A stretch of 64,000 nucleotides of DNA, taken from Mugil cephalus (lineage: Eukaryota > Chordata > Actinopteri > Mugiliformes > Mugilidae). The notes under the pieces were generated by a model, which did not search any database, was not told the origin of the DNA, and worked only from the letters and a program-made list of their open reading frames with translations. Every line of letters starts with the position of its first letter. The first letter of the stretch is position 1. The stretch spans positions 9,061,001-9,125,000 of the forward strand of contig NC_061778.1 in assembly GCF_022458985.1 (NCBI RefSeq), in the 5' to 3' direction. The position numbers and the translations under genes are program-made. Positions 4,166 through 64,000 of the stretch are shown piece after piece.

Positions 4166-4702
4166 CTTGTGTGTTTTATTATCTATCATGCTACCCTTGA
4201 TAGTATGAGTAAATTAAAGCTGTAACACTGAGTATTTAGTATGTAGTTTTTAAATTATTTTTTAACTTTTTTGTTGCTTTTCTTTTTTGTATTTTTACAG
4301 TTTATGAAGACTAGTACAAAAACTGCTGTCATGAAAATGATCAGCGTTAACGTAGGACGATGATATATGTGGAAAAAAGTGACAGAACAAGAACAGTGCT
4401 TTCATTTTGAGAGCAATATGCAATTTATACTACTGCTTATATAAATTATGCATTAGCCATTAGATAAGGTTAGTCTCAATTTCATTTATTTTTATAGAAT
4501 AGTTCAAATCATCAGACTACTTATCATATTCAAACAGCTTGAGAGACTTAAGAAATTAGTTATTACTTTTGTGAATAAGTGAAGAAAGGTTGATATTTTT
4601 CGTTTATGAATTTTAAAAAATCGCACATACAACTTCAATCTACAAGTCCAAAAGCCTTATTTGTAGAATTTTAATAATAAAATAAATATGCCAAACTACA
4701 TA
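4166..4702. other. intergenic, nothing recognised
   Basis: AT-rich spacer between the presumed taok1 polyA site and the MITE. I see no exon, RNA gene or clear repeat. Confidence 0.5.
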
Positions 4703-5060
4703 AGCCCTAAGTAGTCACGCATTCACACATTATTTCCTCTGTTTGACTGTGATAACGAGTTAATTTCTTCTGTTTTCTCGAGATCTCGAGTTATTTATCT
4801 GATTATCTTGGGAAAACGAGCTTTGTTTTTTTTGGCAAACATTAAAGCACAAAAGAACTGGCTCACCTTACAGTAGGCCTATCACATTAGGCTTTTATTA
4901 TTATTGTTATTACTCACATTAGTGTTCAGGGCATCCATCAGTCAGCATGGCAGGTCATGTATGACAGAACTCTAATAAAATATCGAGGAAACAGGAAAAA
5001 AACTCGTTATCACGGGAAAACAGGAAATAATACGTATGAATGCATGGCCGCTTAGGGCTT
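4703..5060. mobile_element. MITE with ~85-bp terminal inverted repeats
   Basis: The left end (AGCCCTAAGTAGTCACGCAT, then a TTATTTCCT block and TGTGATAACGAGTT) is repeated in inverted orientation at the right end (AACTCGTTATCACGGGAAAA, AGGAAATAAT, ATGCATGGCCGCTTAGGGCT). By eye the arms are about 80% identical over 80-90 bp and enclose about 180 bp of AT-rich, non-coding sequence. I could not identify a convincing target-site duplication, so the superfamily is left open. Confidence 0.7.
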
Positions 5061-6001
5061 CCATATCAAACATCTGTCTTTAACGTAATAATAACAAAAA
5101 AGTCAACTGAGCTTTGCAACTTTAACCATACTGACGTCACTGCGTTGGGTTCGCGTAAAAAGGCCCGAGGAGGCCTCTGCAGGTCCGCGGACCACAGCTT
5201 CAACCCACGCAATCACTGCCTCCAGAGGCGGATGTGATATGTGACGAGCATTGTAAACAAAAGTGAGTGTTTAGCTCGGGTGGACAAGGTATGCCGTCTC
5301 AGGAGTCTCTGGCTTGAGTAAGTAAACAGTCTCACAGCGCGGAAAACCTTACCGAGCTACGTATCACCTTCACAACAATGATGACACAAGTGACACGTTT
5401 AACGTTAAGTCAACTCAAGAAAAAAAAAATAACAGTGCATCCAGTGTAGCTAACCCGATTGTAACATCTTCTAATTTTGTAATCTTTACACTGACAATGT
5501 GGTCACTTCGTCCTGTCATGCTGAATGTCATGGTTAGCTCGTACAGTGCATAGTTGTGTTAGCTGCTAAGCTACCACTACTTGGGATCTTGGTGCATTGT
5601 GGACGAATAAGTTGTTGTTAAGGTACGCTAGCATGAATACTGTCGATGTGCTGGTATTAGCTAAACTTGTGTATGCAGAATGTCTTAATAGTTGAAACGT
5701 AATGTGAGCTGGTAATGATTTGCTAACTTAAAATAACTAAACTATAAGATGCAAAGCTGCGAGGTAGGCTAGCTACAGAGAGCTTACATAAAAAATAATA
5801 TTTTTTAATAAAGCGCAATTTAAAAACCGAAGACAAAAATGGTATCCTTCGTGAATGATTAACGCAGAATTAACCTTTAATTCATATGCATTATTGTCCA
5901 GTGCATACATGTATAAACACATTCAGCAACATTTATTTATTTATTTTTTTCCAGATCTTAAATCATCTGTATCTGTTTCTGTTTCCTCGCTAGAGTCAAG
6001 G
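5061..6001 (+). promoter_or_regulatory. Probable promoter, 5' UTR exon and first intron of small membrane-protein gene
   Basis: A locally GC-richer patch at 5150-5290 ends in GGTGGACAAG followed by the donor-like GTATGC at 5289. A T-rich tract with CCAG at 5952-5955 is a good acceptor 46 bases before the ATG at 6002. I infer a non-coding first exon ending near 5288 and an intron to 5955. There is no transcript evidence. Confidence 0.35.
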
Positions 6002-7153
6002 ATGTTGTGTGAAGTCCTGCTGTCATCACTATGGTTCCTGTTCGTTATCTTCTGGGTCGAGACCATCAGTGTGTGGCTCTTTCTTTCCATGTTCTACCAG
6101 GACCGAGCAATTTACCACTGGGGAGATGGGTGAGTAACGACGCCTCTGTGATCAGCCTGCACTGCACGACACACAAATATTTCTGGGGCACTTTCAGCAG
6201 CGTGAGCGCACAATGCTCCCTGAGTCATGATAGGACCAGCTTCTCAATGCTGTGCTCTTACGTACCTCATTCATTCAGAAAAAAAAAAAAAAAAAAAAAC
6301 ACATGTTAAATAATATTAAATCAACATTTAGATACTTAATATTTAATTATTAAATATGAGTGGGTTGCAATGTGTTCTTTTTGATGGATGAAAAATAGCC
6401 AAGTTTCACACCTAATCAACAATGACTGATGTCTTTATTAAACTTTATCACCAGATATTTTTGGGTTGTTATCTGAGCTTTGTGCAGGTGGTATATAATT
6501 AATGTCCAGTTGGGGATCAATTAATAAAGAACACATTTACGTGTGCGCATTCAATTAATGAGAGGGACCCTAAAGTTGCATTATATTGCAGAGTTTGTAG
6601 TTTGTCTCCTTGTTGGCACTCGCACACAACAAACAAGTGCAGTCTGTGGCTGTGACTCAGGGTAGGTGGTATTTTTTTGCATACGAAGTGTGAAGCTTTG
6701 ATTGGATCTCGAGATGCATTTAAAATGTCAAATGTTAAGACGCGTGTTATTATTAGCTAGTTATTGTCATCCGATCAGGACTGGTTCAAATAGGTATGAA
6801 TGTGAGGCTTTTATATTCATCCCCACATCTGTCTTTCGTTTATGACATTTCCCTGCACAATACTTGTTTAACATGAAAGTTAAAGGTGCCACCACCATAA
6901 CCAACCAGACTTAGACCTTTAAAGTCCTTGAGTATTGTCCATGTTCTGAGCACAGCTATTAGATGGAACCATTTGTTTGATGTTACAGGGTATTTGCAGA
7001 TGACCCTGGCCAGATGATATACATGTTGAGCAGGTACGAACCAAGTGTTTACTCGGTTTACAGTTTGTTTTGAAGTAGAAGTCGTGAAAGGCCTAATGTC
7101 TTGTCTCCTTCCGCAGAGTTGAAACCCACGTGGAGACAGAGGTCCAGACCTGA
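6002..7153 (+). CDS. Unrecognised 69-residue single-pass membrane micropeptide (three coding exons)
   Basis: Exons 6002-6129, 6989-7033 and 7117-7153 join in frame to give 210 nt including TGA. Donors are GTGAGT (6130) and GTACGA (7034); acceptors are TGTTACAG (ending 6988) and TCCTTCCGCAG (ending 7116). Residues 1-4 (MLCE) precede one strongly hydrophobic segment, about residues 5-31, rich in Leu, Phe and Trp (LLSSLWFLFVIFW, then SVWLFLSMF). A polar tail follows: YQDRAIYHWGD, then VFADDPGQMIYMLSR from the 45-nt middle exon, then ETHVETEVQT. Three exons keeping one open frame with good splice sites argue for a real gene. I do not recognise the family and assign no function. Orientation and position, between taok1 and paf1, suggest an independent small transcription unit. 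Confidence 0.6.
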
Positions 7154-8130
7154 GATGAAGAAAGATCAAGACGTCCACTGAAAGGACTCTCAACAGAGTG
7201 CTGTTGCAGTTGACTCAAGAACGCATAATGAAAGGCTGTTTTTCCTTTGCACTGACGGCCTTGCACACTGTTGTGCACAGATTGCTTTTTAATAGTAGGC
7301 AGCAGAGAGACGCAGCATGAGGGAAGCCATAATTAATATGTAGAGGGAGGTCCTGCATATTGTATGATTCACACTCACCACTGCAGCATCTATATTTTCA
7401 CTTTCAGCTTTTGGGGAAGCAGAATGAATGTAAAGAAGATATTGGTTCACTACAGATCGGCTTAGTGCATGTTTCTTCTATTTACTTTACTCTCCTATCT
7501 ACTTTATTCCATCTTGACACACTCACCGAGGTGGTGTTTTGGTCATGCTGTCATTCTATGCAAATACAGTAATTTCATTTTACAGTTATATTTGTGTTTA
7601 CAAATGTCAGATTGCAGTGATTCTGTTATGAAGTGTTGCAAATCTTATAATTATCAGATGTTCTATATTTGATGCTATAACCTTTGTCAATGAGTTATTT
7701 TTGAATACTGGCCGTGGTCGACTATTGTACCAGGAATAGATAACCAAGAATTCTTTATTTCAGATTTATTCTATTTTTCACTACATTAGATAAACTGGAA
7801 AGTAATTCTGATTTGTTCACGTATTAAGAATTTTCCTGAGCTTTGAGACACCCCTTGAGCTTTATTTACTAGCGATTGGGTTTTGCTCAGTTGTCATGTA
7901 TCTCTCCCCTGATAATACACATTACCTGCAGAGGTCTCATTATTAAATAAACTGAAAGATTCACGTGTGCTGATGATACGAGGGAAAAAAAAAAAAAATT
8001 GAAAGCCCTGGCAGTGGACTGTGTGTTTATTATTGTAAGAAAGATTGTATGTGTGTATGAAGAGAATCAGAGCGGGCAGATTGTAAAATAACATGTCAAA
8101 TGTTATGTCCAATAAAATAAAAGGGAAAGT
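7154..8130 (+). other. 3' UTR of the small membrane-protein gene (probable)
   Basis: Non-coding, AT-rich. Tandem polyA hexamers (AATAAAATAAAAGG) lie at 8111-8124 and another AATAAA near 7951. Nothing else was recognised. Confidence 0.4.
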
Positions 8131-8493: not shown

Positions 8494-13228
<4,735 letters not shown>

Positions 13229-32607: not shown

Positions 32608-32776
32608 GGTCCTTTAAAGTCTATGCGGCCACTATGCACGGACAGTAATAATAATGAAACCTCAAACGAAGGATGTGCATGGGAAACTTCTGCTAAAACA
32701 TAACTGCAGTCACGAGTCGTCCCTTGGAAACTCCCTGGAGTGGTGCAACTGTTGCCATTTCCTCCCATAATCCGCC

Positions 32777-34417
32777 ATGTCGTTACCAAATGAGTCGGGG
32801 AACCGAGGGAAAGATCGAGAGAGGGGGGCCCGTCCCAAGGTGAGGCAGAGTCGATCCGAGGAGAGACGAGATTCAGGCGGCGGACGGAAAGGTGGAAAGG
32901 GGAAGAAAAAGGGCCTCGCCTCCCACGAACCAGCAGCGGAGCGGCCCGTCAGCGACGGCTTTGAGTATGGTGAGTTGCTGGGTGAGCTGGAGAGCAGGGA
33001 CCAGTCTTCCTCATCCTCCTCCCCTCTCAGGGACAGTTGGAGATGGCAGGGTTTGGAAGTTGCCGCCTCTTTACTGGGACAGGAACGGGTAACAGCCAGA
33101 CCTGGTCTGGGAACAGTTAGCTCTGCTGCAGAGTTGTCTGCACCCAGCGAAAGTGATGGCAGAGGATCAAGCAGCAGTCGCACTCTCAGGCAAAAAATCC
33201 AGGATGCAATGGGGCAGTGCTTCCCAATAAAGACACACAGCGCAGCGGCACCAGCTCCGCCTTCACAGGCTCTTTCATCAGCAACTGCTTGTGCCTCCTC
33301 GAGGCGGAAGATCCATCTCAGTGAGTTGATGTTGGATGACTGCCCTTTCCCCGTAGGATCCGAGCTGGCTCAGAAGTGGTATCTCATTAAGCAACACACG
33401 GCCCCTATTACTCAGACTCCCTTGCTAGATTCTGCAGTGGTGTGCAGTGCCCCAACTTCAGCCATGGCTACGGTGGTGGAGGACGTGGACGACCGGTTAC
33501 GAGAGCGCAGGCGCATCAGCATCGAACAAGGGGTTGAGCCACCTCCCAACGCAGAGATCCACACGTTCGAGGTGACGGCCCAAATCAACCCTCTCTACAA
33601 GCACGGCCCCAAGCTGGCTCATGGTATGAATGACCTGGCCGGGACCGACAGAGCCGCTGTTCATCAGCAGCAGCAGCAGCTTCTTCTCCAAAGACAGCAG
33701 CAACACCAACTCCTATTACAGAGCTGCTTGGACACGCTGGACGAGGTGGTGGCCTCAGCGTCGGCCTCTGTTCACCCATGTGACACCGTCTCTGATCCTG
33801 TGGTTGACCCAGAGGTGCCGGCCGCCAACATAACCCCTAGAGCCATACTCCCTCAGACTGAGCAACAGAAATCTCACGACGGCTACCGCATTCACACTCA
33901 GATTGATTACATTCACTGTTTAGTTCCAGACCTGCTGCAGATCACCAACCTCCCGTGTTACTGGGGGGTCATGGACCGCTACGAGGCCGAGACGCTGCTG
34001 GAGGGAAAGCCTGAGGGCACCTTCCTCCTGCGTGACTCCGCCCAGGAAGACTACCTCTTCTCCGTCAGCTTCCGCCGCTACGGCCGCTCGCTACATGCGC
34101 GCATCGAACAGTGGAACCACAATTTTAGCTTCGACGTTCACGACCCCAGCGTCTTCCACGCTCCCACAGTCACGGGACTCCTAGAGCACTACAAGGACCC
34201 AAACTCCTGCATGTTCTTCGAGCCCCTTCTGTCGAACCCCATCCACCGCACGCAGCCCTTCAGCCTGCAGCACATCTCTCGGGCCGTCATCAGCAGCTGC
34301 ACAACCTACGATGGCATTAACATGCTTCCCATTCCAAATGCTTTGAAAAAGCACCTGAAAGAATACCACTATAAGCAGAGAGTACGTGTACGGCGTATGG
34401 ACACCTGGTGGGAATGA
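32777..34417 (+). CDS. socs9: SOCS4/5-family suppressor of cytokine signalling, best fit SOCS9
   Basis: Adaptor of an Elongin-BC/Cullin-5 E3 ligase that damps JAK-STAT and growth-factor receptor signalling. It is a single 546-aa exon. Order: basic disordered N-terminus (1-50); [20 protein letters not shown] (from about 135); [17 protein letters not shown] (about 177), the conserved N-terminal SOCS4/5 region; [20 protein letters not shown], a SOCS5-like block; Gln-rich [22 protein letters not shown]2 domain about 395-490 with the phosphotyrosine-binding Arg419 in FLLRDSA; SOCS box about 493-546 with BC-box [13 protein letters not shown] (495) and Cul5-box LPIP (517-520). It has the SOCS5-like middle but lacks the SOCS5 N-terminus and starts more like SOCS4. 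With samd4b and gmfg as neighbours, this points to the third ohnologue, socs9. Plain socs5 is the alternative name. Confidence 0.9.
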
Positions 34418-46800: not shown

Positions 46801-47880
46801 ACCATAGGGGGAAGATCTTATTTTTTGCACTAACCACTGAACCACTAGCTGAGGCCATCAAGAATCACTGCAATGCTTTAACAGTCCGCATAAAACCTGC
46901 TGCATGGAGCAGATTGTGCTTTATGCTGATGATCATTTTTTTTACTGTCCAAACCTGAGGAATCCATACCAGCCTTAAAGTCAGCCACACGAGCTTTTGG
47001 TTCAATCTCGTAATACAGAATGAATATTGGGAAATCGATGGATGTAACAGGGTCGTGTTTTCTCCGCCAGACTTCCCCTCCTCTCATCAGAGTTGCCGTT
47101 CTCATGGAATGCCCCAAGACTGGAAAATAAAACCGTTTGAGGCTTAATTCAAACACATAAGTGCTTTGAAGGCTTTAAAAGTATCCTGACAGATAGTCGC
47201 CCATTTCATGGTTGAGTTGAGTAAATTTGCAGCTTAACTGGTCGGTGGACGCATACAATCACACAGTGGTAATTGTAGTTAGACTTAGTAGACTTATTAG
47301 TTTCTGCTTTATTTCTTAAATTATTTTCGTCTTCAGCTGCAGCGTGGTTAGGCTTAGCCAGGGGAACAAAAAAAAAAGTTTGATAGGTTTAAAAAAGATC
47401 ATATTTGTGGTTAACACAGGTCCTTTCACAACATTAAGTGTTAGAAAAAGCTTCTTAGGTATGAATAGCATTATTTTGCTCCAAAGCATTTGTACTTTAC
47501 ATTTTTATTATCATTTATTTGGATGCCTTTAGATGTTTTAGTCACCTGTGTATTTTTATTTATTTAGTTTTGTAATTATTGTTTAATGCTGCATTGTATA
47601 TATATATCTGTGTGTATGAGAGGAAGATATGCAGATGTGTGTTTGTGTGTACCTTCTTTGTGGAGGTGGGTAGTTGTAAGGTATAATTATTTATAGGTTT
47701 AAGAGGGGAGGGTCACTTATAAGTCCTTTGGGCTTTTTGAGCTTTCCTGCACATCTTTTTAACATCTCTTTCCTTATGAAAGAACAACAATAAATTCTTT
47801 CTTTGTTAAATGTTTTTCCATCAGTTATGTGTATTTTTTTCCTTGCCATGTAAAGCCTTTTGTAAATATGACTTGAACAA
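43894..47880. other. Intergenic, nothing recognised
   Basis: AT-rich spacer before the satellite. It contains a (GT)n microsatellite at 45013-45032 and no supported gene. Confidence 0.45.
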
Positions 47881-47883
47881 TGC

Positions 47884-48540
47884 TATATATGTATATATAT
47901 ATGTATATATATGTGTATATATATGTGTATATGTATGTATGTATGTATATATGTATGTATATATGTATGTATATATGTATATATGTATGTATGTATATAT
48001 GTATATATGTATATATGTATGTATGTATATATGTATATATGTATGTATATATATATGTATATATATGTGTGTGTATATATGTGTGTGTATATATGTGTGT
48101 GTATATATGTGTGTATATATATGTGTGTATATATATGTGTTATATATATATATGTATATATATTATGTGTAATATATATATTGTATTTATATATATATAT
48201 ATATGTGTATATTAAAATATATGTATATATATATTGTATATATATATTATATATGATATTATATATATGTATATATATATATGTATATATATATGTATAT
48301 ATATATGTATATATTATATATGTATATATATAATGTATATATATATGATTTATATATGTATATGTATATATGTATATATGGTATATATATATATGTATTA
48401 TGTATAGTATATATTGTATATATTGTATATATGTGTATATATTTTGTATATGTGTATGTATATATTTGTGTATGTATATAGTGTATATATTTGTGTATAT
48501 ATATGTGTGTATATATGAATGTGTATCTAATGTATTTATA
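47884..48540. repeat. TA/TG microsatellite leading into the satellite
   Basis: Almost pure alternating purine-pyrimidine sequence made of TATATA, TATG and TGTG runs (TATATATGTATATATATG, then GTATGTATGTATATATG, then TATATGTGTGTG). It lacks the TACATG core that dominates the next 15 kb, so it forms a distinct left shoulder. Confidence 0.95.
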
Positions 48541-51500
48541 TACATGTATGTTTATATAAAGGTTATATTACATGTATATTTATATACATGTTATCTACAT
48601 GTATTATAACATGTATTTTTATATACATGTATTTTATATACATGTATATACTACATGTATTTTATATACATGTATATTATCATACATGTATTTTATATAC
48701 ATTATTTTATTACATGTTATTTTATATACATGTATATTTATATACATGTATTATTACATACATGTATTTTATATACATGTATATTTATATACATGTATAT
48801 TTAATACATGTATTTTTATATACATGTATATTTATATACATGTATATATACTACATGTATTTTATATACATTATATTTTTATATACATGTATATTTATAT
48901 ACATGTATATATAATACATGTATTTATATACATGTATATTTATATACATGTTATATATACATGTATATTTATATACATGTATATATACATGTATATTTAT
49001 ATACATGTATATATACATGTATGTATATATACATGTATATATACATGTATGTATATATACATGTAGATAAATATACATGTATGTATATATACATGTAGAT
49101 AAATATACATGTATGTATATATACATGTAGATAAATATACATGTATGTATATATACATGTAGATAAATATACATGTATGTATATATACATGTAGATAAAT
49201 ATACATGTATGTATATATACATGTAGATAAATATACATGTATGTATATATACATGTAGATAAATATACATGTATGTATATATACATGTATATAAATATAC
49301 ATGTATGTATATATACATGTATATAAATATACATGTATGTATATATACATGTATATAAATATACATGTATGTATATATACATGTATATAAATATACATGT
49401 ATGTATATATACATGTATATAAATATACATGTATGTATATATACATGTATATAAATATACATGTATGTATATATACATGTATGTATATATACATGTATGT
49501 ATATATACATGTATATAAATATACATGTATATAAATTATACATGTATATATACATGTATATATATATACATGTATATATACATACATGTATATATACATG
49601 TATATATACATGTTATATATATACATGTATATATACATGTATGTATATATACATGTATATAAATATACATGTATATATACATGTATATAAATATACATGT
49701 ATATAAAATACATGTATGTATATATACATGTATATAAAATACATGTATGTATATATACATGTATATAAAATACATGTATATAAAATACATGTATATATAC
49801 ATGTATATAAAATACATGTAGATATACATGTATGTATATATACATGTATATAAAATACATGTAGATATACATGTATATAAAATACATGTATGTATATATA
49901 CATGTAGATATACATGTATATATACATGTATGTATATATACATGTAGATATACATGTATATATACATGTATATAAAATACATGTATATATACATGTATAT
50001 AAAATACATGTATATAAAATACATGTAGATATACATGTATATAAAATACATGTATGTATATATACATGTAGATATACATGTATATAAAATACATGTATGT
50101 ATATATACATGTAGATATACATGTAGATAAATATACATGTATGTATATATACATGTAGATAAATATACATGTATGTATATATACATGTAGATAAATATAC
50201 ATGTATGTAGATATACATGTAGATAAATATACATGTATGTAGATATACATGTATATAAAATACATGTATGTAGATATACATGTATATAAAATAAATGTAT
50301 GTATACATACATGTATGTATGTATACATACATGTATGTATATATACATACATGTATGTATACATACATGTATGTATGTATATATACATACATGTATGTAT
50401 ACATACATGTATGTATACATACATGTATGTATACATACATGTATTTTATATACATACATGTATTTTATATACATACATGTATGTATACATACATGTATTT
50501 TATATACATACATGTATGTATACATACATGTATTTTATATACATGTATTTTATATACATACATGTATTTTATATACATACATGTATTTTATATACATACA
50601 TGTATTTTATATACATGTATTTTATATACATGTATTTTATATACATGTATTTTATATACATACATGTATTTTATATACATACATGTATTTTATATACATG
50701 TATTTTATATACATGTATTTTATATACATACATGTATTTTTATACATGTATTTTATATACATGTATTTTATATACATGTATTTTATATACATGTATTTTA
50801 TATACATACATGTATTTTATATACATACATGTATTTTATATACATACATGTATATATACATACATGTATTTTATATACATGTATATATACATACATGTAT
50901 TTTATATACATGTATATATACATACATGTATTTTATATACATGTATATATACATACATGTATTTTATATACATACATGTATATATACATACATGTATTTT
51001 ATATACATGTATATATACATACATGTATTTTATATACATGTATATATACATACATGTATGTATACATACATGTATTTTATATACATACATGTATTTTATA
51101 TACATGTATGTATACATACATGTATTTTATATACATACATGTATTTTATATACATACATGTATTTTATATACATGTATGTATACATACATGTATGTATAC
51201 ATGTATGTATACATGTATGTATACATACATGTATGTATACATACATGTATTTTATATACATGTATGTATACATGTATTTTATGTATATGTACATGTATAT
51301 ATACATGTATATAAAATACATGTATGTATATATACATGTATATAAATATACATGTATATATACATACATGTATTTATATACATGTATTTTATATACATGT
51401 ATATTTTATATACATGTATATTTATATACATGTATATATACATACATGTATTTTATATACATGTATATATACATACATGTATATATACATACATGTATTT

Positions 51501-54500
51501 TATATACATGTATATATACATACATGTATTTTATATACATGTATATTTATATACATGTATATATACATGTATATTTATATACATGTATATATACATACAT
51601 GTATATTTATATACATGTATATATACATACATGTATATTTATATACATGTATATATACATACATGTATATTTATATACATGTATATATACATACATGTAT
51701 ATTTATATACATGTATATATACATACATGTATATTTATATACATGTATATATACATACATGTATATTTATATACATGTATATATACATACATGTATATTT
51801 ATATACATGTATATATACATACATGTATATTTATATACATGTATATATACATACATGTATATTTATATACATGTATATATACATAGATGTATATTTATAT
51901 ACATGTATATCTACATAGATGTATATTTATATACATGTATATCTACATAGATGTATATTTATATACATGTATATCTACATAGATGTATTTTATCTACATG
52001 TATATCTACATAGATGTATTTTATCTACATGTATATCTACATGTATTTTATCTACATGTATATCTACATGTATTTTATCTACATGTATATTTATATACAT
52101 GTATATATACATACATGTATTTTATATACATGTATATTTATATACATGTATATATACATACATGTATTTTATATACATGTATATCTACATGTATATATAC
52201 ATACATGTATTTTATATACATGTATATCTACATGTATATATACATACATGTATTTTATATACATGTATATCTACATGTATATATACATACATGTATTTTA
52301 TATACATGTATATCTACATGTATATATACATACATGTATTTTATATACATGTATATCTACATGTATATATACATACATGTATTTTATATACATGTATATC
52401 TACATGTATATATAACATACATGTATTTTATATACATGTATATCTACATGTATATATACATACATGTATTTTATATACATGTATATCTACATGTATATAT
52501 ACATACATGTATTTTATATACATGTATATCTACATGTATATATACATACATGTATTTTATATACATGTACATATACATAAAATACATGTATATATACATG
52601 TATGTAGATATACATGTATATAAATATACATGTATGTATATATACATGTATGTAGATATACATGTATGTATACATACATGTATATAAATATACATGTATG
52701 TATATATACATGTATGTATATATACATGTATGTATACATACTTGTATGTATACATACATGTATTTTATATACATGTATGTATACATACATGTATGTATAC
52801 ATACATGTATGTATACATACATGTATATATACATACATGTATTTTATATACATGTATATATACATACATGTATTTTATATACATGTATATATACATACAT
52901 GTATTTTATATACATGTATTTTATATACATGTACACATACATAAAATACATGTATATCTACATGTATATAAAATACATGTATGTATGCATACATGTATGT
53001 ACATGTATTTTATATACATGTATATATACATACATGTATTTTATATACATGTATATATACATACATGTATTTTATATACATGTATATATACATACATGTA
53101 TTTTATATACATGTATATATACATACATGTATTTTATATACATGTATATATACATACATGTATTTTATATACATGTATTTTTATATACATGTATATATAC
53201 ATACATGTATTTTATATACATGTATATTTATATACATGTATATATACATACATGTATTTTATATACATGTATATATACATACATGTATTTTATATACATG
53301 TATATTTATATACATGTTATATACATACATGTATTTTATATACATGTATATATACATGTATTTTATATACATGTATATATACATGTATTTTATATACATG
53401 TATATATACATACATGTATTTTATATACATGTATATATATACATACATGTATTTTATATACATGTATATATACATACATGTATATAAAATACATGTATGT
53501 ATATATACATGTATGTATATATACATGTATATAAAATACATGTATGTATATATACATGTATATATACATGTATGTATATATACATGTATGTAGATATACA
53601 TGTATGTAGATATACATGTATGTAGATATACATGTATGTAGATATACATGTATGTAGATATACATGTAGATATACATGTAGATATACATGTAGATATACA
53701 TGTAGATAAAATACATGTATGTATATATACATGTATGTATATAAAATACATGTATGTATATATACATGTATGTATATAAAATACATGTATGTATATATAC
53801 ATGTATGTATATAAAATACATGTATGTATATATACATGTATGTATATAAAATACATGTATGTATATATACATGTATGTATATATACATGTATGTATATAA
53901 AATACATGTATGTATATAAAATACATGTATGTATATATACATGTATGTATATAAAATACATGTATGTATATATACATGTATTTTATATACATGTATTTTA
54001 TATACATGTATATCTACATGTATTTTATATACATGTATTTTATATACATGTATATCTACATGTATTTTATATACATGTATATCTACATGTATTTTATATA
54101 CATGTATATATACATGTATATATACATGTATTTTATATACATGTATATATACATGTATATATACATACATGTATTTTATATACATGTATTTTATATACAT
54201 GTATATATACATACATGTATTTTATATACATGTATATATACATGTATATATACATGTATATATACATACATGTATTTTATATACATGTATATATACATAC
54301 ATGTATTTTATATACATGTATACATACATGTATATATACATACATGTATACATACATGTATATCTACATACATGTATTTTATATACATGTATATCTACAT
54401 ACATGTATTTTATATACATGTATATCTACATACATGTATTTTATATACATGTATATCTACATACATGTATATCTACATGTATTTTATATACATGTATATT

Positions 54501-57500
54501 TATATACATGTATATCTACATACATGTATTTTATATGCATGTATTTTATATACATGTATTTTATATGCATGTATATATACATACATGTATTTTATATGCA
54601 TGTATATATACATACATGTATTTTATATGCATGTATATATACATACATGTATTTTATATGCATGTATATTTATATACATGTATATATACATACATGTATT
54701 TTATATGCATGTATATTTATATACATGTATATATACATACATGTATTTTTATATACATGTATATTTATATACATGTATATCTACATACATGTATTTTATA
54801 TACATGTATATCTACATGTATATCTACATACATGTATTTTATATACATGTATATCTACATGTATATCTACATACATGTATTTTATATACATGTATTTTAT
54901 ATACATGTGTATATCTACATACATGTATTTTATATACATGTATTTTATATACATGTGTATATATACATACATGTATTTTATATACATGTATATATACATG
55001 TATTTTATGTATATGTACATGTATATAAATATACATGTATATAAAATACATGTATATAAACATGTATATAAAATACATGTATATATACATACATGTATAT
55101 ATACATACATGTATTTTATATACATGTATATCTACATGTATTTTATATACATGTATATATACATACATGTATTTTATATACATGTATATATACATACATG
55201 TATTTTATATACATGTATATAAAATACATGTATTTTATATACATGTATATATACATACATGTATATAAAATACATGTATGTATATATACATGTATGTATA
55301 TATACATGTATATAAAATACATGTATGTATATATACATGTATATAAAATACATGTATGTATATATACATGTATATAAAATACATGTATGTATATATACAT
55401 GTATATAAAATACATGTATGTATATATACATGTATATAAAATACATGTATGTATATATACATGTATATAAAATACATGTATGTATATATACATGTATGTA
55501 TATATACATGTATGTATATATACATGTATGTATATATACATGTATATAAAATACATGTATGTAGATATACATGTAGATATACATGTATATAAAATACATG
55601 TATGTAGATATACATGTAGATATACATGTATATAAAATACATGTATGTAGATATACATGTATGTACATATACATGTATATAAAATACATGTATGTATATA
55701 TACATGTATATATACATACATGTATATAAAATACATGTATGTATATATACATGTATGTATACATACATGTATATATATATACATGTATATAAAATACATG
55801 TATGTATATATACATGTATATATACATGTATATATATATACATGTATATAAAATACATGTATGTATATATACATGTATATATACATGTATATATACATAC
55901 ATGTATTTTATATACATGTATATATATATACATGTATGTATATATACATGTATATATACATACATGTATTTTATATACATGTATGTATACATACATGTAT
56001 ATTTATATACATGTATATATACATAGATGTATATTTATATACATGTATGTATACATAGATGTATATTTATATACATGTATATCTACATAGATGTATATTT
56101 ATATACATGTATATATACATACATGTATTTTATATACATGTATATCTACATACATGTATTTTATATACATGTATATCTACATACATGTATTTTATATACA
56201 TGTATATCTACATGTATTTTATCTACATGTATATTTATATACATGTATATATACATACATGTATTTTATCTACATGTATATTTATATACATGTATATATA
56301 CATACATGTATTTTATATACATGTATATTTATATACATGTACATATACATACATGTATTTTATATACATGTATATTTATATACATGTACATATACATACA
56401 TGTATTTTATATACATGTATATCTACATGTATATATACATACATGTATTTTATATACATGTATATCTACATGTATATATACATACATGTATTTTATATAC
56501 ATGTATATCTACATGTATATATACATACATGTATTTTATATACATGTATATCTACATGTATATATACATACATGTATTTTATATACATGTATATCTACAT
56601 GTATATATACATACATGTATTTTATATACATGTATATCTACATGTATATATACATACATGTATTTTATATACATGTATATCTACATGTATATATACATAC
56701 ATGTATTTTATATACATGTACATATACATAAAATACATGTATATATACATGTATGTAGATATACATGTATATAAATATACATGTATGTAGATATACATGT
56801 ATATAAATATACATGTATGTATATATACATGTATGTATATATACATGTATGTATATATACATGTATGTATATATACATGTATGTATACATACATGTATGT
56901 ATACATACATGTATTTTATATACATGTATATATACATACATGTATATATACATACATGTATATATACATACATGTATATATATACATACATGTATATATA
57001 CATACATGTATTTTATATACATGTATATATACATACATGTATATATACATACATGTATATATACATACATGTATTTTATATACATGTATTTTATATACAT
57101 GTACACATACATAAAATACATGTATATCTACATGTATATAAAATACATGTATGTATGCATACATGTATGTACATGTATTTTATATACATGTATATATACA
57201 TACATGTATTTTATATACATGTATATATACATACATGTATTTTATATACATGTATATATACATACATGTATTTTATATACATGTATATATACATACATGT
57301 ATTTTATATACATGTATATATACATACATGTATTTTATATACATGTATTTTTATATACATGTATATATACATACATGTATTTTATATACATGTATATTTA
57401 TATACATGTATATATACATACATGTATTTTATATACATGTATATTTATATACATGTATATATACATACATGTATTTTATATACATGTATATATACATGTA

Positions 57501-60500
57501 TTTTATATACATGTATATATACATACATGTATTTTATATACATGTATATATACATGTATTTTATATACATGTATATATACATGTATTTTATATACATGTA
57601 TATATACATGTATTTTATATACATGTATATATACATACATGTATATAAAATACATGTATGTATATATACATGTATGTATAAAATACATGTATATATACAT
57701 GTATGTATATATACATGTATATAAAATACATGTATGTATATATACATGTATATATACATGTATGTAGATATACATGTATCTAGATATACATGTATGTAGA
57801 TATACATGTATGTAGATATACATGTAGATATGTATGTAGATATACATGTAGATATGTATGTAGATATACGTATGTAGATATGTATGTAGATATACATGTA
57901 GATATACATGTAGATATACATGTAGATATACATGTAGATAAAATACATGTATGTATATATACATGTATGTATATAAAATACATGTATGTATATATACATG
58001 TATGTATATAAAATACATGTATGTATATATACATGTATGTATATAAAATACATGTATGTATATATACATGTATGTATATAAAATACATGTATGTATATAA
58101 AATACATGTATGTATATATACATGTATGTATATAAAATACATGTATGTATATATACATGTATTTTATATACATGTATTTTATATACATGTATATCTACAT
58201 GTATTTTATATACATGTATATCTACATGTATTTTATATACATGTATTTTATATACATGTATATCTACATGTATTTTATATACATGTATATCTACATGTAT
58301 TTTATATACATGTATATATACATGTATATATACATGTATTTTATATACATGTATATATACATGTATATATACATACATGTATTTTATATACATGTATTTT
58401 ATATACATGTATATATACATACATGTATTTTATATACATGTATATATACATGTATATATACATACATGTATTTTATATACATGTATATATACATACATGT
58501 ATTTTATATACATGTATATATACATACATGTATTTTATATACATGTATATATACATACATGTATATATACATGTATACATACATGTATATCTACATACAT
58601 GTATTTTATATACATGTATATCTACATACATGTATTTTATATACATGTATATCTACATACATGTATTTTATATACATGTATATCTACATACATGTATTTT
58701 ATATACATGTATATCTACATACATGTATATCTACATGTATTTTATATACATGTATATTTATATACATGTATATCTACATACATGTATTTTATATGCATGT
58801 ATTTTATATACATGTATTTTATATGCATGTATATATACATACATGTATTTTATATGCATGTATATATACATACATGTATTTTATATGCATGTATATTTAT
58901 ATACATGTATATATACATACATGTATTTTATATACATGTATATTTATATACATGTATATATACATACATGTATTTTATATACATGTATATTTATATACAT
59001 GTATATCTACATACATGTATTTTATATACATGTATATCTACATGTATATCTACATACATGTATTTTATATACATGTATATCTACATGTATATCTACATAC
59101 ATGTATTTTATATACATGTATTTTATATACATGTGTATATATACATACATGTATTTTATATACATGTATATATACATGTATTTTATGTATATGTACATGT
59201 ATATAAATATACATGTATATAAAATACATGTATATAAACATGTATATAAAATACATGTATATAAACATGTATATAAAATACATGTATATATACATACATG
59301 TATATATACATACATGTATTTTATATACATGTATATATACATACATGTATTTTATATACATGTACATGTATGTATATATACATGTATATAAAATACATGT
59401 ATGTATATATACATGTATATAAAATACATGTATGTATATATACATGTATATAAAAAACATGTATGTATATATACATGTATATATACATGTATGTATATAT
59501 ACATGTATGTATATATACATGTATGTATATATACATGTATGTATATATACATGTATGTATATATACATGTATGTATATATACATGTATATAAAATACATG
59601 TATGTAGATATACATGTAGATATACATGTATATAAAATACATGTATGTATATATACATGTATGTAGATATACATGTATATAAAATACATGTATGTAAAAT
59701 ACATGTATGTAGATATACATGTATATAAATACATGTATGTATATATACATGTATGTATACATACATGTATATATATATACATGTATATAAAATACATGTA
59801 TGTATATATACATGTATATATACATGTATATATATATACATGTATGTATATATACATGTATATATATATACATGTATATATATATCATGTATATAAAATA
59901 CATGTATGTATATATACATGTATATATACATACATGTATTTTATATACATGTATATATATATACATGTATGTATATATACATGTATATATACATACATGT
60001 ATTTTATTACATGTATATATACATACATGTATTTTATATACATGTATATATACATACATGTTATTTTATATACATGTATATATACATACATGTATATATA
60101 CATGTATATATACATACATGTATTTTATATACATGTATATATACATACATGTATATATACATGTATATATACATACATGTTATATAATGTATATATACAT
60201 ACATGTATATAAATAATGTATGTATATATCATGTATGTATATACATGTATATAAATACATGTATGTATATATACATGTATTTATAAATACATGTATGTAT
60301 ATATACATGTATATATACATACTGTTATATATATACATGTATATAAATACATGTATTTATATACATGTATATATACATGTATATACTACATGTATTTTAT
60401 ATACATGTATATATACTACATGTATTTTATATACATGTATTTTATATAATACATGTATTTTATATTACATACATGTATTTTATATACATGTATTTTATAT

Positions 60501-63500
60501 AATACATGTATTTTATATACATGTATTTTATATACATGTATTTTATATACATGTATTTTATATACATACATGTATTTTATATACATGTATTTATATTTAT
60601 ACATGTATTTTATATACATGTATTTTATATACATACATGTATTTTATATACATACATGTATATATACATACTGTATTTTATACATGATATACATACATGT
60701 ATTTTATATACATGTATATATACATACATGTATTTTATTATACATGTATATATACATACATGTATTTTATATACATGTATATATACATACATGTATATTT
60801 ATATAACTGTATATATACATACATGTATTTTATATACATGTATATATCATAATGTATACTGTATACATACATGTATTTTATATATACATGTATTTATATA
60901 CATGTATGTATATATACATGTATTATATACATCATGTATTTATATACATACATGTATTTATATATACATGTATGTATATATACATGTATGTATATATACA
61001 TGTATTTTATATACATGTATGATACATGTATTTATACATGTACATGTATATTATACATGTATATAATATACATGTATGTATATATACATGTATATAATAT
61101 ACATGTATATATAATACATGTATTTAATATATACATGTATGTATATAATACATGTATATTATATACATGTATATTTATTATATACATGTATATTTAATAC
61201 ATGTATATATACATACATGTATTTTATATACATGTATATATACATACATGTATATATATACATGTATTATATATACATGTATATTTATTACATGTATATA
61301 TACATGTATTATGTATATATACATGTATATATAATAATACATACATGTATATATTATATACATGTATATTATACATACATGTATATTGTATATTACATGT
61401 ATATATACATATACATGTATATTATATATACATGTATATATACATACATGTATATTTATATACATGTATATATACATACATGTATATATTATATACATGT
61501 ATATATACATGTATTATATATTATACATGTATAATTATAACATACATGTATTTATATACATGTATAATTAATACATGTATTTATATACATGTATATATAC
61601 TATACATGTATTTTACATGTATATATACATGTATATTATGTATATATACATGTAATATACATACATGTATATATATATACATGTATATGTAATGTAATAT
61701 AATACATGTATATATACATGTATATATACATGTATATATAATACATGTATGTATATATACATGTATATAAAATACATGTATGTATATATACATGTATATA
61801 AAATACATGTATGTATATATACATGTATATAAAATACATGTATGTATATATACATGTATATAAAAATACATGTATGTATATATACATGTATGTATATATA
61901 CATGTATGTATATATACATGTATGTATATATACATGTATATAAAATACATGTATGTAATTACATGTATAGTATACATGTATATAAAATACATGTATGTAT
62001 ATATACATGTATGTAGATATACATGTATATAAAATACATGTATGTAAAATACATGTATGTAGATATACATGTATATAAAATACATGTATGTATATATACA
62101 TGTATATATACATACATGTATATTATATACATGTATATAAATACATGTATGTATATATACATGTATACATACATGTATATATATATACATGTATATAAAT
62201 ACATGTATGTATATATACATGTATATATACATGTATATATACATACATGTATTTTATATACATGTATTATATATATACATGTATGTATATATACATGTAT
62301 ATATACATACATGTATTTTATATACATGTATATATACATACATGTATTTTATACATGTATAATTATACATACATGTATATATACATGTATATATACATGT
62401 ATATATACATACATGTATATATACATGTATATATAATACATGTATATATACATGTATTATATACATACATGTATATAAAATACATGTATGTATATATACA
62501 TTGTATGTATATATACATGTATATAAAATACATGTATGTATATATACATGTATTATAAAATACATGTATGTATATATACATGTATATAAAATACATGTAT
62601 GTATATTTTACATGTATATAAAATACATGTATGTATATATACATGTATATAAAATACATTGTTATATTATATACATGTATATAAAATACATGTATTTATA
62701 TATACATGTATGTATATATACATGTATGTATATATACATGTATTATATATTACATGTATGTATATATACATGTATGTATATATATACATGTATATAAAAT
62801 ACATGTATGTATATATACATGTAGATATATACATGTATATAAAATACATGTATGTATATATACATGTATGTAGATATACATGTATATAAAATACATGTAT
62901 GTAAAATAATGTATGTATATATACATGTATATAAAATACATGTATTATATATACATGTATATATACATACATGTATATATATATCATGTATATAAAATAC
63001 ATGTATGTATATATATACATGTATATATACATGTATATATATATACATGTATATAAAAATACATGTATGTATATATACATGTATATATATACATGTATAT
63101 AAAAATATACATGTATATAAAATACATGTATATAAATACATGTATATAATAATACATGTATATTATACATACATGTATTTTATATACATGTATATCTACA
63201 TGTATTTTATATACATGTATATATACATACATGTATTTTATATACATGTATATATACATACATGTATTTTATATACATGTATATATACATACATGTATAT
63301 ATACATGTATATATACATACATGTATATATAATGTATATATACATACATGTATATAAAATACATGTATGTATATATACATGTATGTATATATACATGTAT
63401 ATAAAATACATGTATGTATATATACATGTATATAAAATACATGTATGTATATATACATGTATATAAAATACATGTATTATATATACATGTATATAAAATA

Positions 63501-64000
63501 CATGTATGTATATATACATGTATATAAAATACATGTATGTATATATACATGTATATAAAATACATGTATGTATATATACTATGTATTATATATACATGTA
63601 TGTATATATACATGTATTGTATATATACATGTATATAAAATACATGTATGTATATATACATGTAGATATACATGTATATAAAATACATGTATGTATATAT
63701 ACATGTATGTAGATATACATGTATATAAAATACATGTATGTAAAATACATGTATGTAGATATACATGTATATAAAATACATGTATGTATATATACATGTA
63801 TATATACATACATGTATTATATATATACATGTATATAAAATACATGTATGTATATATACATGTATATACATACATGTATTATATATACATGTATATTAAA
63901 ATACATGTATGTATATATACATGTATTATATACATGTATATATACATACATGTATTTTATATACATGTATATTATAATACATGTATGTATATTATACATG
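48541..64000. repeat. ~15.5-kb palindromic TACATGTA satellite array (continues past the window)
   Basis: The whole interval is built from the palindrome TACATGTA, spaced by a few short linkers: TATATA, TATG, TTTTATA or its complement TATAAAA, TTTATA/TATAAA, and TCTA/TAGA. Composite units of roughly 26-50 bp recur, for example ACATGTATGTATATATACAT alternating with ACATGTATATAAA or ACATGTAGATAAA near 49.05-49.5 kb, and the reverse complement near 51.5-51.9 kb. C and G occur almost only inside ACATGT, GTATGT/ACATAC and TCTA/TAGA. The right boundary is outside the window. Confidence 0.97.
51881..60200. repeat. Higher-order tandem duplication inside the satellite (~4.14-4.26 kb period)
   Basis: Rare marker variants recur in order at a near-constant offset. 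The first ACATAGATGT cluster is at 51881 and 56021; GTACATATACATAAAATACA at 52567 and 56718; GTACACATACATAAAATACA at 52931 and 57101; the ATATGCATG cluster starts at 54531 and 58789; TTTTATGTATATGTACATGT at 55003 and 59181. Offsets are 4140, 4151, 4170, 4258 and 4178, so the copies differ by internal unit gains and losses. Beyond about 60.2 kb the correspondence fades. Confidence 0.85.

Follow-up and report, generated by a model that had tools for sequence, protein, structure and literature searches.

A single-locus, self-complementary AT-rich minisatellite in Mugil cephalus that probably works like human FRA10B and FRA16B

We analyzed a 64,000-nt stretch of the Mugil cephalus genome (assembly GCF_022458985.1, contig NC_061778.1, positions 9,061,001 to 9,125,000 of the forward strand; hereafter the window), the right-hand part of which is occupied by a long AT-rich tandem array built on the self-complementary octamer TACATGTA. 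In the reading that we favor, to which we assign a probability of about 0.72, this non-coding array is an AT-rich minisatellite that has expanded at its present site, is prone to inversion and works like the human fragile-site repeats FRA10B and FRA16B. The features that were seen in the assembly or in silico are the presence of the array at one locus, an edge of TG/TA repeats, a palindromic interior written on two strands, inverted blocks, a higher-order duplication and the capacity of the strand to fold on itself.

An earlier note, made from the letters of the window only, had described a satellite of more than 15.5 kb built on the octamer and starting at position 48541. Counting of the octamer confirmed the array and, to the base, its starting point. 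TACATGTA occurs 952 times in 48541-64000 and 954 times in the whole window, as compared with a mean of 8.85 (sd 3.04) when the window was dinucleotide-shuffled 100 times; the first in-array copy is at 48541, and two of the copies in the window fall outside 48541-64000. The extent held for the octamer only, as the repeat as such begins 657 bp earlier, at 47884, according to Tandem Repeats Finder, whose top-scoring row gives approximately 525 copies at a 31-bp period. From this position to the end of the window, the assembled length is 16,117 bp. The AT content of 48541-64000 is 82.8%, and the GC content per kilobase falls from 0.37-0.40 ahead of the array to 0.15-0.18 within it. The 5,000 bases that follow the window read N, so the right end of the array is out of view, and TACATGTA is absent from the 24.5 kb read past this N stretch. 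The array is made up of two parts:

47884 to 48540, forward strand: left edge, a TG/TA repeat that is nearly free of C and contains 24 copies of TATATGTA and none of TACATGTA.
48541 to 64000, both orientations: main array, in which spacers, for the most part of 4, 7, 8 or 11 bp, lie between the 952 copies of TACATGTA.

The distribution of the unit was determined by pattern searches covering 634.8 Mb in 24 contigs, in which counts of repeats are possibly lower bounds. All 70 exact genome places of a 22-bp pattern lie inside this array. TACATGTATTTTATATACATGTA, a 23-bp pattern of the 15-bp unit, was found 163 times in forward and 72 times in reverse orientation both genome-wide and in the window, and this exact agreement suggests that the counts are complete for exact patterns. 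Triples of the octamer with spacers of 4-11 bp were present at 892 places, as compared with 1 for the reversed control pattern; 829 of them are in the window and, among the triples listed, 46 in a shorter array on another contig (C2, described below) and 3 in each of two small clusters on the contig that carries the window array (C9, 28.4 Mb), while 11 others were not placed. Similarly, a 26-bp pattern allowing at most one mismatch gave 143 places (control: 3), and the matches listed fell in the window array, except for 4 in the C2 array. The assembled genome thus has the array at a single locus, which makes it a local expansion and not a satellite family. The earlier note had proposed precisely this distinction, with a single locus meaning local expansion and many loci a true satellite; its suggestion that the array could be pure expansion is supported, and the term satellite has to be dropped.

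A true satellite family, with the unit at many loci or in centromeric or pericentromeric heterochromatin, would account well for some of the features of the array. It has a higher-order repeat of approximately 4.2 kb and homogeneous units (952 intact octamers versus 45 with one mismatch, the latter counted where they share no more than 2 bases with an intact octamer), and homogenized tandem units with higher-order repeats are what satellites consist of. However, we found neither many loci nor megabase heterochromatic arrays, the unit patterns are exclusive to the window locus within the assembled 634.8 Mb, and the array sits in gene-bearing sequence, beginning 13.5 kb downstream of the SOCS4 reading frame. 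On the genome-wide counts in the assembly we rejected the satellite family, which only unassembled copies could rescue and which we regard as very unlikely. Long arrays that look like satellites in assemblies may therefore be one-locus expansions.

The left edge contains 93 G and 1 C, and TATATGTA is a single transition away from TACATGTA. Pyrimidine-purine alternation is 0.941 in the edge, 0.894 in the array and 0.480 in the flank, and 66.8% of the 10,040 array 8-mers without C or G recur in the edge, read on either strand (an uncontrolled figure). In 48541-64000, C (1320) and G (1338) are present in nearly equal numbers and CpG occurs once. Octamers span 49.2% of this sequence and contain 1904 of its 2658 C and G, and CATG, which is found 983 times, accounts for 1966 of them. 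Read as a succession of C and G letters, the interior gives CG 1002, GC 1001, GG 336 and CC 318 times, with 985 of the 1002 C-to-G steps being of exactly three bases. Among the 951 intervals between octamers, 824 are of 16 bp (410), 15 bp (263), 12 bp (116) or 19 bp (35), and the spacers found most often are TTTTATA (163, with 72 more in reverse-complement form as TATAAAA), TGTATATA (127), TATATACA (123) and TATA (55). Exact copies of the composite units were found in forward and reverse orientation, with 59 and 32 copies of a 31-bp unit, 24 and 10 of a 32-bp unit and 15 and 2 of a 43-bp unit. When the array is modeled as a third-order Markov chain, 940 octamers are expected, as compared with the 952 observed. 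The enrichment thus lies in CATG placed within alternating TA, to which the eight-base word itself adds nothing.

The octamer reads the same on both strands, which leaves the spacers as the sole indicators of orientation. The orientation counts exclude 208 unclassed and 92 palindromic spacers out of 951. T-type spacers adjoin c-type spacers 183 times and g-type spacers 4 times, and A-type spacers adjoin c-type spacers 5 times and g-type spacers 110 times (Fisher p 1.9e-70); it follows from this adjacency bias that composite units of 31-43 bp invert whole, flipping as coherent blocks. Over the 651 oriented spacers there are 54 orientation switches versus 315 under random order, and when just the 303 spacers of T and A type are considered there are 34 switches versus 131 expected, the minimum of 2,000 shuffles being 106. 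Flips span many scales, reaching single units near 55.2 kb. Perfect palindromes of at least 24 bp were found at 26 of the 54 switches versus 46 of the 596 non-switch neighboring pairs. Perfect palindromes of at least 16 bp cover 32.5% of the array, 10-13% of three first-order simulations and 0.6% of 15.4 kb of flank, with the longest palindrome reaching at most 40 bp in the simulations and 44 bp in the flank. The most prominent inverted features of the array are as follows:

55822 to 55937, no strand: longest perfect palindrome, 116 bp, at which the unit orientation flips between 55839 and 55898.
49084 to 49483, reverse strand: inverted block, matching the stretch from approximately 51558 at 97.4% over a 400-bp chunk.

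The center of the 116-bp palindrome is at array position 7339; near it, at 55849, lies the center of the best palindrome with 300-bp arms, the arms of which differ by 31 edits. For other 400-bp chunks, top inverted matches were mostly at 86-94%.

The array also contains a duplication of a higher order. Self-BLAST of the whole array was uninformative, with printed rows at many lags and 82-86%, and chunks of 400 bp were used instead. The following segments were delimited:

51700 to 55880, forward strand: higher-order copy 1, approximately 4.2 kb, from chunk matching and whole alignment.
55880 to 60000, forward strand: higher-order copy 2, from chunk matching and whole alignment.
60000 to 64000, no strand: irregular tail, with a surplus of one-base indels and uneven spacings.

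All but one of the 17 chunks between 51684 and 54884 have their top direct match at a lag of 4,140-4,258 bp (90.8-99.5%); the exception, chunk 53284, matches at 92.6% elsewhere versus 92.2% at the duplication lag. Matches at other lags are mostly at 86-93%, which places the weaker duplication chunks little above background, and chunks 55084-55684 match later blocks equally well or better. Alignment of copy 1 with copy 2 gave 3827 matches and 41 substitutions (98.9%), with 548 of 4416 columns gapped. The 49 gaps consist of 11 of one base and 38 of 3-71 bp, and 24 of the 41 substitutions replace a common spacer type by a different common one, which is the pattern expected of conversion or misaligned exchange. 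A block of approximately 600 bp is repeated at 55.3, 59.3, 61.7, 62.5 and 63.4 kb. From 59541 onward, 19-36% of the spacings per kilobase are irregular, versus 2-17% earlier. Blocks 61718 and 63373 are separated by 17 one-base gaps and 2 substitutions, and blocks 55284 and 59323 by 3 one-base gaps and 10 substitutions. The irregularity of 60000-64000 is probably uncorrected sequence error close to the sequence break.

The surplus of one-base indels in the tail, the N directly after the window and the close similarity of the 4.2-kb copies are all in line with an assembly artefact, in which a shorter array was inflated by misassembly or by the joining of two alleles in tandem, and the flips came from the assembler. 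Yet one-base gaps account for just 11 of the differences between the two copies, as compared with 41 substitutions and 38 gaps of greater length, flips are seen at many scales, including that of single units near 55.2 kb, and more than 11 kb of array would be left even minus one 4.2-kb copy. We consider it unlikely that an artefact explains the array.

The substitutions between the copies also bear on a selected role. TACATGTA holds the Irx motif ACATGT and matches the center of the NACC1 target ATTACATGTAAT, and the array could thus be a selected protein-binding array serving as decoy or docking platform. In the excerpts that represent the cited papers here and below, ACATGT and ACAnnTGT are used as putative Irx (Iroquois) motifs (PMC4726432) and the BEN domain of NACC1 prefers CATG DNA (oligo ATTACATGTAAT), with a KD of 1.3 uM for CATG-containing DNA (PMC11472053). 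Both reports speak for such binding, as does the distribution of the substitutions, with 6 in 2007 octamer columns versus 35 in 1861 spacer columns (Fisher p 8.5e-7). This difference lost its strength once the substitutions were listed singly, because without the 24 swaps of common spacer types it shrinks to 6 versus 11, which is no clear contrast and does not support selection on the octamer. The number of octamers at the level of the third-order Markov model (940 versus 952) and the restriction to one locus also stand against binding. For IRX3 itself, the evidence on the motif is mixed: in the excerpt of PMC5652024, its effect on a promoter was lost on deletion of ACATGTGT, yet kept under point mutations. 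The substitution contrast between copies and the motif literature revealed no selected role of the array, and we judge a binding function to be extremely improbable.

Almost any stretch of the array had been expected in the earlier note to fold on itself. Eight 121-nt segments of the array, chosen by position before folding, were folded as single-stranded DNA and compared with 200 dinucleotide shuffles each. All eight were better than every shuffle (z -4.46 to -7.54). A segment of the edge (48000-48120) had a z of -0.79, with 51 of 200 shuffles equally good, and a segment of the flank had a z of +1.56. For these segments the expectation of self-folding was borne out, but the part assigned to the octamer as its source was weakened: a (TA)60 strand reached -39.2 kcal/mol versus -26.3 to -32.4 kcal/mol for the array segments. 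We rejected the octamer as a source of superior hairpin formation, since plain (TA)n of similar length folds better.

The likeness to AT-rich minisatellites of human rare fragile sites that had been put forward in the same note was supported. Like FRA10B and FRA16B, as described in an excerpt of PMC9714581, the array is an AT-rich minisatellite of many kilobases at a single locus, with variable unit make-up and predicted secondary structure. Composite units measure 31-43 bp in the window array versus 33 and approximately 42 bp in FRA10B and FRA16B, and the AT content is 83% versus 91% stated for FRA10B (PMC9714581). AT-rich units of approximately 33-42 bp at one locus, as in the human repeats, are thus present here, and the length of 16,117 bp (an assembly length) is above the figure of approximately 5 kb for expansion of FRA10B. 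The units of the window array lie in both orientations, blockwise, and strand inversion is pronounced. Overall, the fragile-site comparison is reasonable in the sense that the array would work like these repeats, and unproven in the sense that it is one of them. The comparison with palindromic AT-rich repeats (PATRR) did not survive. The array shares with them AT-richness, self-complementarity and, in principle, the possibility of cruciform extrusion. However, PATRR11 and PATRR22 are single near-perfect palindromes of several hundred bp with more than 90% AT (PMC4940405, in excerpt), whereas the window array consists of hundreds of short dyads, with a longest perfect palindrome of 116 bp and 83% AT. 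Membership among PATRR was rejected on the AT content of 82.8% (below 90%) and on the form of the palindromes, none of which is single and near-perfect (maximum 116 bp; 300-bp arms 31 edits apart). With respect to TG/TA (ATGT-type) and (TA)n microsatellites, the left edge is alike, whereas the interior differs by its CATG palindromes, its use of both strands and its higher-order structure.

We propose that the array grew out of a TG/TA alternating microsatellite, which would still be present as the left edge. The CATG center would be the point where a CA strand passes into a TG strand, and it may have arisen via single T-to-C changes or via copying of a folded strand, and then spread. The near self-complementarity of the units would be expected to give rise to hairpins and small cruciforms while the DNA is replicated or repaired. 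By way of slippage, unequal exchange and template switching on folded-back strands, these structures could then have led to the duplication of units and of multi-kilobase segments and to the flipping of blocks, the products of which are found in the assembly. The predicted effect is local instability, possibly with stalling of forks as at FRA10B and FRA16B. Related processes have been described in other systems, as far as the excerpts go: in yeast without RNase H2, mutations that extend the identity between the arms of imperfect inverted repeats are generally ascribed to template switching (PMC3820800), palindromes in yeast are broken by hairpin- and cruciform-cutting nucleases (PMC8053094), and 14 copies of the FRA16B unit stall forks in vitro (as cited in PMC9714581).

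Several points weigh against this reading. Expansion and instability are not observed as processes, and the array is known from one assembly. Some of the block inversion and of the 4.2-kb duplication may have been created by the assembly, for example by the joining of two alleles. Since (TA)n outfolds the array, self-complementarity alone cannot account for growth at this locus. Finally, CATG needs no fold-back, as one T-to-C change in TATATGTA gives TACATGTA. The same outcome may have been reached convergently without any fold-back, if point mutation created CATG and head-to-tail slippage with unequal exchange followed. The 24 copies of TATATGTA in the edge, each a single transition from TACATGTA, and the predominance of gaps of at least 3 bp between the 4.2-kb copies (38 of 49) are consistent with such a course, but whole inverted blocks are left unexplained by it, as is the 97.4% inverted match between 49084 and 51558, and we find it improbable. 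An inversion-prone minisatellite expanded in place remains our favored reading. If it is real in long reads, the locus would offer a natural single-locus AT-rich self-complementary array of more than 16 kb, with its likely microsatellite ancestor attached and its history of duplications and flips readable. The expansion of AT-rich minisatellites, human examples of which include FRA10B and FRA16B, would then become comparable across individuals and related species.

The shorter array detected by the octamer triples lies on another contig:

C2:27539535 to 27542173 (positions 4535 to 7173 of locus L018): second array, 2.6 kb, in an intron of XPO1, with exportin-1 matches on both sides.

It has an alternation of 0.981 and contains 63 copies of TACATGTA, with 15 and 16 bp as the commonest spacings, TACAATA and TACCATA as the main spacers, 82 ACGT and 91 CpG. 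In common with the window array are 949 of its 2628 12-mers, 103 of its 2616 24-mers and 23 of its 2609 31-mers. We take the C2 array to be a separate instance, of independent origin, of the grammar seen in the window array, although the two arrays could also share a remote common source. By eye, a CA/TA repeat passes into CATG units and then into units rich in ACGT and CACGTG. A more far-reaching proposal is that of a microsatellite that perfects itself, in which fold-back template switching would turn TG/TA or CA/TA repeats into palindromic arrays with the grammar of TACATGTA, at least twice independently (on C9 beside SOCS4 and on C2 in XPO1), followed by runaway growth and block flips. We advance this tentatively and think it rather doubtful; if true, it would constitute a distinct route from a microsatellite to an inversion-rich, fragile-site-like array.

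We found no published description of the unit in literature on palindromic AT-rich repeats and AT-rich teleost minisatellites, which consisted mainly of titles and abstract starts and is weak evidence of absence. In excerpts of other papers, TACATGTA occurs as a string in two PCR primers (PMC2483724) and once in a 32-bp lark mitochondrial repeat unit, the remainder of which is different (PMC11278119), and ATACATGT in a fish paper is part of a PCR primer (PMC8620147). One exact unit pattern had no matches in viral_contigs and another had none in genome_contigs, both non-vertebrate collections that carry little weight. Rfam at gathering thresholds and ARAGORN for tRNA gave zero matches in the window.

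The SOCS4 reading frame spans 32771-34417 (Pfam SOCS, SH2, SOCS box; PDB 2izv SOCS4, E 2e-89), and the neighborhood also includes an exon of Smaug homolog 1 (PDB 8oik, E 2e-36). AATAAA is found at 47789-47794, approximately 90 bp ahead of the array, and is a possible polyadenylation signal. To the right of the N stretch, positions 5501-6060 of locus L009 resemble, judged by eye, what we take to be a decayed Tc1-type transposon. An interrupted (TA)n of approximately 300 bp without TACATGTA is located at 8941-9245 of the same locus, a few kb past the array. Lastly, C9:878001-888000 (locus L019) comprises 10 kb of varied minisatellites (AGACTAG, AGAGACC, CAT-based and GAGACA-based), among which one TGTACA-rich unit contains TACATGTA.

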